DNA of 64,000 bases, taken from positions 186,001 to 250,000 of the forward strand of contig JAHHGX010000065.1 in assembly GCA_019359675.1 (NCBI GenBank), written 5' to 3'. This document shows positions 25,680 through 27,805 of the stretch, one piece after another (position 1 is the stretch's first letter; every line of letters starts with the position of its first letter). The translations under genes were made by a program, and so were the position numbers. A model generated the notes under the pieces. That model was not told the DNA's origin. It made no database searches and was given only the letters and a program-made list of their open reading frames with translations. The stretch is from Calothrix sp. FI2-JRJ7. Lineage in GTDB: Bacteria > Cyanobacteriota > Cyanobacteriia > Cyanobacteriales > Nostocaceae.

Positions 25680-26957
25680 TCAAAATATGAATTTCAACAA
25701 ATAAAAAATCAGCGCACTCAATAATGCACTAATCGGAACAGTAACCACCCAAGCAGCAGCAATATTTTGCAGCGTTGAAAACTTAATTGACTTCAAATCT
25801 TGCACCAACCCGATACCTACAACACCACCAACAAGTGCGTGAGAAGTTGAAACAGGCAAACCGAAGCGAGAAGCAAGCAAAATTGTAATTGCGGTAGCGA
25901 GTTCAGCACAGAAACCACTGCTAGGTTGTAAAGTAATAATACTTTCACCAATAGTCGCAATCACATTTTTACCGAATATCGCCAAACCAGTAACAATACC
26001 AGCGGCGCCAAGTACTAAAATCCATAAAGGTACATCTATCTGTGTTATTGGCACTTTAGTGCTATTAACTGTATAAACAATAGCTGCCAATGGTGCTATA
26101 GCATTTCCCACATCATTAGAACCATGTGCAAACGCAACAAAGCAAGCACTCAATAATTGATAGCGTGCAAATATTTTTTCGATTAATGAATTATTACCCC
26201 CCTTCTCTACCAGGCGCCAGCTATAAACAGTTAAACTGACAACAGCAACGGCGCCTGTTAGCAGCGAGTAATCATAAAAAGGTATATTTATACCGAACTT
26301 ATTTATAAAAAATTCAGCGATAGGATGAGTTAAAGTTGGTAATACAATAACACCAAAAGCACCAACTAAAGCAGCACTTAACCAAGGAATCCACTCATTT
26401 AATTGTATTATTTGATTCGGCTGATTTAAAATCCAACGTTGAATTTGACTGTAAAATAAAGCCGCAATTATACCGCTAATAATAGGTGTTAATACCCAAC
26501 CAATAGTAATTAACTTAATCGAAGACCAATCAATGGCGCCAACTCCCAACGCTACCCAACTAAACCCAGCAATGGCGCCGACCACAGCATGAGAACTCGA
26601 CACAGGTAAACCGCGCGAAGTTGCCAGTTGTAACCATAACCCACATGCTATTAGTACAGAAAACATCCCAGTCACAAATAACTGAGGAGTATTTACAAAT
26701 AACACAGGGTTTGCCACACCTGTTGCTAAGGTCTGTGTTACCTCACCTCCAAACAACACGGCACCCGCAAACTCTAATACACCTGCAATAATTAAAGCTT
26801 GCCTCAAAGTAACCGCTTTAGAACCTACCGAAGTGCCCATTGCATTAGCAACATCATTGGCGCCAAGGTTAAAAGCAAGGTAAAAAGCTAAAATAGCAAC
26901 AACAATCAATATACCAATAGAGTAGTCAGTAAAGCGGAGCAATCCGACGTAAATCAT
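25680..26957 (-). CDS. PiT-family inorganic phosphate transporter
   Basis: A 425-residue membrane protein with about ten helices and the two inverted PiT signatures, LGANDVANAMGTSVGSKA near the N-terminus and FAHGSNDVGNAIAPLAAIVY in the second half. SRGLPVSSSHAVVGAIAG and RFGLPVSTSHALVGGVVG are the paired ion-binding repeats. It is a low-affinity, cation-coupled phosphate uptake system. The start is at ATG 26957, and the HEARO-like RNA begins just beyond it on the other strand. Confidence 0.95.
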   Translation of the reverse strand: MIYVGLLRFTDYSIGILIVVAILAFYLAFNLGANDVANAMGTSVGSKAVTLRQALIIAGVLEFAGAVLFGGEVTQTLATGVANPVLFVNTPQLFVTGMFSVLIACGLWLQLATSRGLPVSSSHAVVGAIAGFSWVALGVGAIDWSSIKLITIGWVLTPIISGIIAALFYSQIQRWILNQPNQIIQLNEWIPWLSAALVGAFGVIVLPTLTHPIAEFFINKFGINIPFYDYSLLTGAVAVVSLTVYSWRLVEKGGNNSLIEKIFARYQLLSACFVAFAHGSNDVGNAIAPLAAIVYTVNSTKVPITQIDVPLWILVLGAAGIVTGLAIFGKNVIATIGESIITLQPSSGFCAELATAITILLASRFGLPVSTSHALVGGVVGIGLVQDLKSIKFSTLQNIAAAWVVTVPISALLSALIFYLLKFIF

Positions 26958-26989
26958 GGTTAATCTGTGGTTTATGAAAGGTGGAAATT

Positions 26990-27212
26990 GGTCTACCCGG
27001 CTACACCAGAGTCGCCCTTTGGCAAGGCGTAAGCGCTACTAGAGTCACGACCTTAATAGGATTTTACCAGCCTTAAGGTATAGCTAGTCCTAAGCGGTCA
27101 GGAAAGGAACATCACGTAGTTTGCTCTCGTGGAAAACCAATCCGATTAACAAGCAACGTAGCATTCTCAAAGCAAACTTTACCCCATAAAAGAGCGGCGT
27201 AACTGCCAACAA
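26990..27212 (+). ncRNA. HEARO-like omega RNA of an IscB element
   Basis: A 220-base stretch directly upstream of an iscB start has the position, length and wording I associate with HEARO (omega) RNAs: an opening near GTCTACCCGGCTAC, then AGAGTCACGACCTTAATAGG. Stems include ACCTTAA/TTAAGGT (27050-27056 with 27073-27079), CACG/CGTG (27113-27131) and a long-range GTTTGCT/AGCAAAC (27119-27125 with 27171-27177). In intact IscB loci this RNA guides the nuclease, with the guide at its 5' side (here near 26974-26989). The nuclease gene is reduced to its first ~40 codons, so this is an orphan RNA. Confidence 0.7.
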
Positions 27213-27216
27213 AAAA

Positions 27217-27570
27217 ATGTCGAAATTAACAAATCACGTTTTTGTATTGAACAAAGACAAAAGTTTTCTAAGTATGGTGCATCCAGCACGAGCAAGAAAA
27301 CTTTTAACGCAAAACAAAGCGGCTGTATTTAGGAAGATGAAAAGAATGAATTATCATTATAAAATAATTATCCAATGGTCAGAAGAAGATAAATGCTACG
27401 TCGTTAGTCTTCCAGAGTGGGGAGAATTTTGCCATACCCACGGGGATACTTATGAAGAGGCGTTAAAAAATTCTCAAGAAGTTTTAGAGATGCTTATAGA
27501 GTCATATATAGAAGATGGTCAACCTCTTCCAGAACCTCAAATTATTGGAAAGTTAGTTCAAGCCGCCTAA
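27217..27570 (+). CDS. IscB N-terminal remnant fused in frame to HicB-like protein
   Basis: A 117-residue frame. Residues 1-40 are an IscB PLMP/RRXRR start: HVFVLNKDKSFLSMVHPARA, then KLLTQNKAAVFRK. Residues 44-117 are a HicB-like antitoxin (YKIIIQWSEEDKCYVVSLPE, THGDTYEEALKNSQEV, IEDGQPLPEPQ). The join is clean and in frame. HicB could also start alone at ATG 27337 or 27346, since AGGAAG lies just upstream of 27337. IscB's RuvC and HNH domains are entirely missing. No hicA toxin gene is adjacent, and a HicB paralog follows 7 bp on. Either a deletion scar with an independently translated HicB, or a real fusion. Confidence 0.78.
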   Translation: MSKLTNHVFVLNKDKSFLSMVHPARARKLLTQNKAAVFRKMKRMNYHYKIIIQWSEEDKCYVVSLPEWGEFCHTHGDTYEEALKNSQEVLEMLIESYIEDGQPLPEPQIIGKLVQAA

Positions 27571-27577
27571 AAGCTAA

Positions 27578-27805
27578 ATGATGAAATATACTATTGTGAT
27601 TCAGTGGTCAGATGAAGATAAATGCTATGTTGTTTCGCTACCTGAATTTACTGACGTGTATCAACCCTGTACTCATGGCGATACTTATGAAGAAGCGTTA
27701 AAAAATGCTCAAGAAGTTATAGAGATGCTTGTAGAGTCATACATAGAGGACGGTCAACCTCTACCAGAACCTAAAATTTTAGGACAGTTAATTCCAGCAG
27801 CTTAA
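27578..27805 (+). CDS. HicB-family antitoxin-like protein
   Basis: A 75-residue HicB fold (YTIVIQWSDEDKCYVVSLPE, CTHGDTYEEALKNAQEV, IEDGQPLPEPKI), highly similar to the preceding protein's C-terminal part, so it is a tandem duplicate. It lacks a C-terminal DNA-binding domain. No HicA partner lies on either side. Such short stand-alone HicB proteins are common in cyanobacteria, and their role is unclear. The start is ATG 27578 or the next codon. Confidence 0.8.
   Translation: MMKYTIVIQWSDEDKCYVVSLPEFTDVYQPCTHGDTYEEALKNAQEVIEMLVESYIEDGQPLPEPKILGQLIPAA

Follow-up and report, generated by a model that had tools for sequence, protein, structure and literature searches.

Based on comparison with related cyanobacterial genomes, the DNA in front of a tandem pair of hicB genes in Calothrix sp. 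FI2-JRJ7 is in all likelihood what an insertion and a deletion have left of an IscB (OMEGA, IS200/IS605-like) element, namely its left portion. The locus lies in a 64,000-nucleotide stretch (the window) on contig C65 of the 8.66-Mb assembly (G000). It consists of the omega RNA scaffold (26922–27216, + strand), delimited by a covariance model, by alignment and covariation with intact loci and by the left edge of similarity; codons 1–39 of iscB (27217–27332, +), encoding an incomplete PLMP domain; and a hicB-like antitoxin gene (27346–27570, +). The fused open reading frame (27217–27570, +) encodes 117 amino acids with an IscB-type N-terminus, scoring 28.6 bits (cut-off 25) with RRXRR (PF14239, the family of IscB N-termini), and a HicB body, matching HicB_lk_antitox (PF15919) at 43.2 bits against a cut-off of 27, which identifies it as a HicB-like antitoxin. 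An earlier sequence-only reading had proposed an omega RNA before an iscB start, a truncated nuclease and an in-frame HicB continuation, and both Pfam matches agree with this arrangement. It was also right that the RNA stems and the first part of PLMP survive: omega RNA, stub and in-frame fusion are without visible damage. The RNA is present, but its left start lies further out than the proposed 26974, similarity to intact elements beginning at 26918–26920. Its suggestion that the locus represents a new use of OMEGA parts rather than an ordinary pseudogene finds no support, since the fusion is a single case, the HicB start is kept and the PLMP domain is cut. We favor a recent, ordinary remnant in which the joining of iscB to hicB was probably accidental.

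The comparison within the genus covered seven genomes including the strain's own, six of which gave matches, and it divides the locus at a single point. Positions 26918–27332 resemble iscB elements, and from 27333 onward the similarity is to hicB loci. We place the deletion junction at 27332/27333, inside codon 39, where the first similarity stops and the second starts (BLAST edges with L068 on the iscB side and with L067 and L069 on the hicB side). An intact element elsewhere in the congener G002 (L068/L109) is 92.8% identical over 26918–27332 and continues into a 465-residue IscB with RRXRR and HNH domains. Of the PLMP, bridge helix, RuvC and HNH domains of an IscB nuclease, the window retains just what codons 1–39 encode, and searches of the window for the remainder of iscB or the right end gave nothing beyond chance matches of 14–19 bases. 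On the other flank, the permease alignment with congeners ends at 26921. The element is absent from the orthologous site in all five congeners in which that site was found (G001, G002, G003, G004 and G006; G005 gave no match), as is the PLMP–HicB fusion. Permease and hicB lie 97 bp apart in both G006 and G003, and 110 bp apart in G004. The gaps to the second hicB, 366 bp in G001 and 374 bp in G002, hold hicA (PF07927 at 43.1 bits in G002, assigned by likeness in G001). The nearest relatives in our searches were Calothrix and Dulcicalothrix genomes, and all relatives were cyanobacteria.

Because the congener sites are free of the element, the breakpoints coincide and the rest of iscB is missing, we reconstruct two steps. 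As the comparison shows, an element about 93% identical to that of G002 inserted between codons 1 and 2 of the PHO4 permease gene, pointing at hicB. A single deletion would then have removed iscB codons 40–465, the right end and the native permease–hicB intergenic region of about 97 bp. The end points of this deletion come from the comparison, whereas its order and mechanism are inferred. Illegitimate recombination at a few matching bases is the probable route, the reading frame having been left open by chance, although the microhomology at the junction is not clean, with one extra G relative to the relatives. The omega RNA gene remains whole, IscB is reduced to a stub of 39 residues, and hicB is intact. 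Expression of hicB would now depend on any transcript that runs through the element. Translation would most likely begin at hicB's own start at 27346, with the 117-residue fusion at best a by-product.

A chimeric assembly joined at 27332/27333 could mimic such a history, given that IscB elements are generally repetitive. We consider it extremely unlikely: the flanks of the junction correspond to the neighbors expected of one site, and a second copy of 26960–27340 was not found in the assembly beyond matches of about 17–32 bases. Alternatively, a ready-made short element carrying the omega RNA and 39 codons may have taken the place of the intergenic DNA in a single insertion. Short nuclease-less derivatives do exist elsewhere (L162/L075 in G004 and eight loci with similar tails in G192/G193), and the stubs of L290 and L297 are cut near the same place. 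By eye, however, the right edge of the window's element recurs in none of the 24 other RNA loci lacking a complete IscB. Such a replacement would also require the removal of target DNA, which IS200/IS605 insertion is not known to bring about, and we regard this route as very unlikely.

The remnant also bears on the neighboring gene. The PHO4 phosphate permease frame (25680–26957, − strand; PF01384, 366.7 bits) begins within the left end of the element, its ATG and 11 further codons (26957–26922) being element-derived, while in all five congeners the permease begins MS[TI][GS]IL from a native ATG. Judged from sequence, the element's left end appears to supply the present start codon, the native one having been displaced. 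It is conceivable that the remnant now serves as a shared 5′ region of the divergent permease and hicB genes, starting the permease on one strand and carrying hicB on the other behind the omega RNA leader and iscB stub, with the PLMP stub letting HicB hold the leader RNA, but we think this very improbable. The guide of the omega RNA would be the host sequence just left of 26922.

How well has the RNA been preserved? We built a covariance model, R1, from the regions upstream of 10 intact iscB loci, with neither the window nor its closest intact relative, L109 (= L043), among them. R1 matched the window at 27001–27183 with 114.2 bits (E = 2e-23) and L109 with 110.0 bits. From 14 loci, an alignment of 12 sequences was assembled, namely the window and 11 regions upstream of intact iscB genes; L114, whose upstream region was not located, and L117 and L119, which carry another RNA type, were left out. 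Its consensus structure has 33 pairs, 15 of which show changes on both sides, compared with 8.3 in shuffled alignments and 1–4 when partners were slid, the latter control being biased in favor of the structure, which came out of this very alignment. RNAalifold's own count is 14 pairs with changes on both sides. The window RNA keeps 31 of the 33 pairs, as does L109, and its two substitutions inside pairs preserve pairing in both cases; one possible further pair in L109 appears by eye to be lost in the window near 27040. On its own, the window RNA folds with a minimum energy that does not stand out (z = −1.5). The R1 score and the covariation establish homology and a structure common to RNAs preceding intact iscB genes, by which we recognize an IscB omega RNA. 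Taken together, the R1 score and the retained pairs argue that the window RNA is, at the level of sequence, a full member of a HEARO-like subfamily with no measurable decay, and it may still be made.

The sequence-only reading had named an Infernal search with the HEARO model as a check on the RNA. Rfam HEARO gave no match in the whole window at the gathering score and none at E ≤ 10 in 26900–27300; the membership threshold of RF02033 is a covariance-model score of at least 83 bits, which the window RNA does not reach. This outcome is uninformative as a yes/no test, because the nearest intact relative, L109, lacks a HEARO match as well. Among the 11 intact relatives of the window's RNA type, HEARO was run on 10 (L118 left out): four match weakly (L054/L120, 33.9 bits; L049/L111, 32.8; L113, 31.3; L112, 25.4 with E = 0.22), and six give no match at E ≤ 1. 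L117 and L119, of the other RNA type, score 108.8 and 85.0 bits. A published survey, in the part cited here, reports RF02033 matches in 65% of HEARO 5′ regions (PMC9755519). In this cyanobacterial omega RNA subfamily, many members escape the Rfam model.

The scarcity of decay speaks against reading the locus as a remnant, as the frame is open, the RNA pairs are largely kept, and 11 of the 12 codons (among 39) that differ between the stub and the iscB of G002 are changed silently, the junction codon 39 being counted among the 12. A recent deletion would explain this, but selection would do so equally. The low level of amino-acid change probably dates from when iscB was still full-length and is no proof of present selection.

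Orphan RNAs and nuclease loss are common in this subfamily. Across 208 family genomes, R1 (E ≤ 1e-6, with filters that lose weak matches) detected 50 RNA loci, spread over 17 of the genomes. Half of them (25) are followed by an IscB aligned over at least 457 residues, in four cases in more than one piece. The other 25 lack a complete IscB, 10 having a shorter or doubtful match, the window among them, and 15 having none, although in one of these (L205) the contig ends 266 bases downstream. When the 330 bases after the RNA were inspected by eye in the 25 incomplete loci, only the stub of the window was seen to run into an unrelated domain. Eight loci in G192 and G193 (L178, L181, L182, L183, L185, L187, L189 and L197) show by eye an RNA without a credible iscB and a similar tail, and look like a multicopy nuclease-less element family. 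Internal deletions of iscB joining its start to its own C-terminal part recur, in frame in L289, L293, L299, L301 and L198 and in another frame in L186. Matches to the left end alone occur at L079 (G000:C91:206217-206267) and L077 (G001:C23:79535-79600), neither with an R1 match at E ≤ 1, and these are possibly solo left ends.

Could a different IscB of the cell take up the orphan RNA in trans? Standalone omega RNAs that function with IscB have been reported, according to the part of PMC9581776 cited here, which refers to earlier work, and the window likewise has an omega RNA whose nuclease is not encoded in cis. It differs in that it keeps an iscB stub fused to a host gene, and in that no matching IscB was found in the genome. 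The strain carries three RNAs of this subfamily, each lacking a complete nuclease, and at C8 a single IscB whose open frame is full-length; both facts would fit use in trans. The C8 IscB has an RNA of its own, however, which scores 86.8 bits with HEARO and was not found by R1, either at E ≤ 1 on that locus (L001) or at E ≤ 10 in a genome scan that scored 150 out of 3226 first-look candidates. At E ≤ 1e-120, the assembly showed no IscB like that of G002. We therefore consider use in trans very unlikely. The two further subfamily RNAs of the genome (L124 and L125; G000:C83:121730-121919 and G000:C45:6248-6433) have no iscB, the C45 copy keeping about 10 iscB codons by eye. The assembly holds five other IscB/IsrB-type loci; alignment of the region upstream of the window's stub with the IscB/IsrB copies of the genome was abandoned, those copies belonging by eye to other subfamilies.

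What might the fused protein do? In the cited part of PMC9581776, the PLMP domain of DtIsrB comprises residues 1–59 with four strands; that of OgeuIscB, in the cited part of PMC9640706, has three strands and a helix and contacts the omega RNA at its terminal hairpins. It is conceivable that the PLMP–HicB fusion is made and binds its omega RNA in cis, and that the pair regulates hicB or something else. That contact and the undamaged RNA and stub speak for such a domestication, which would nevertheless have to proceed with a truncated domain. The intact domain is predicted to contain strands at 8–11, 17–21, 35–39 and 44–47 and a helix at 23–31 (block means of pLDDT 91–95 for residues 11–50). In the model of the fusion, residues 1–40 have block means of pLDDT 43–65, the strand at 35 has just two residues and there is no last strand; with a mean pLDDT of 65 and an alignment that is partly misaligned, the first residues of most HicB rows being misplaced, this fold is weak evidence. 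The window PLMP thus keeps 39 residues and is predicted to lose the last strand of the intact domain.

HicB also has its own start, which stands against domestication. Its likely native start at 27346 corresponds to M44 of the fused frame, and AGGAAG at 27331–27336, nine bases upstream, resembles by eye a Shine-Dalgarno site. Because this start is kept with AGGAAG upstream, native HicB can probably still be made without the fusion. At the equivalent position G006 starts MNYHY, whereas G003 could also start six codons earlier. Among 45 relatives, chosen for aligning to the M44 column, 42 have Met there and three have Val. A promoter scan gave one weak sigma-70-like match inside the start region of hicB, against 1.7 in shuffles. 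The first hicB, moreover, is not conserved at the site, carrying an in-frame stop in G004 and being absent from G001 and G002. Together with the fact that the fusion has been seen once, this makes domestication, in our view, highly improbable. The first hicB resembles HicB_lk antitoxins (PF15919) in being a 74-residue HicB domain with the usual start, and differs from them in gaining 43 N-terminal residues if translated from the iscB ATG and in lacking an adjoining hicA. It is followed by a tandem paralogue (27578–27805, +; PF15919, 46.7 bits). No hicA occurs between or before the two genes (27346–27805) among frames of at least 40 residues, and apart from the fusion no + strand frame of that length lies between the permease and the second hicB, so the locus has no HicAB pair; the same site in G001 and G002 is hicA–hicB.

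The sequence-only reading had regarded recurrence of the PLMP–HicB fusion as support for function, but no second one appeared. With the whole fusion as query against 217 family genomes, no other protein among the matches listed spans the junction. The 39-residue stub, searched against 208 family genomes with a cut-off below which very divergent iscB starts fall, gave 81 listed matches in 52 genomes, of which 63 lie in open frames of at least 400 amino acids and 18, including the window, in shorter ones. Of the other 17 short-frame loci, 16 were fetched (one of 375 residues was left out) and 15 were read on the right strand, L296 being dropped. These 15 comprise truncated or frame-shifted copies, stubs that continue in frame into the C-terminal part of iscB itself, and stubs with short tails; in the 10 examined with Pfam, RRXRR was the only domain found. 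A scan of GTDB genomes, which reached close relatives only, returned 79 loci with no fusion, the sole stub-bearing one being the intact iscB of G002. Two HicB matches considered as fusions, L258 (residues 3–117) and L248 (17–117), were rejected, their alignments running over upstream stop codons. Among plasmid records there were five HicB matches, all covering less than 80% of the query, and of the papers searched none names both IscB and HicB. As far as these searches reach, the fusion is confined to this strain, an outcome the same reading had held to count against it if combined with the lack of a transcript. An exapted OMEGA component should be kept across species or have a demonstrated function, and here the fusion is present at none of five congener sites, with no second case among the matches listed.

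The locus shares with IscB/OMEGA elements (ISC transposons) an RNA directly before the iscB start, a conserved paired core, the PLMP start and a left end as in intact relatives. It differs from them in that the nuclease is gone after codon 39, the right end is gone and the RNA falls below Rfam RF02033 detection. TldR proteins, which are RNA-guided transcription factors, derive from TnpB. They are alike in the idea of OMEGA parts taken over by host or phage, but form a family with experimentally shown function, according to the part of PMC13418256 cited here, whereas the window is a single locus.

In the sampled genomes, half of the RNA loci of this subfamily stand without a complete nuclease. 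At the Calothrix locus one can follow, step by step, the decay of an OMEGA element to an orphan guide-RNA gene and a gene fusion that probably arose by accident. Activity of the RNA or of the fusion would make the locus an instance of OMEGA components being drawn into the control of host genes.
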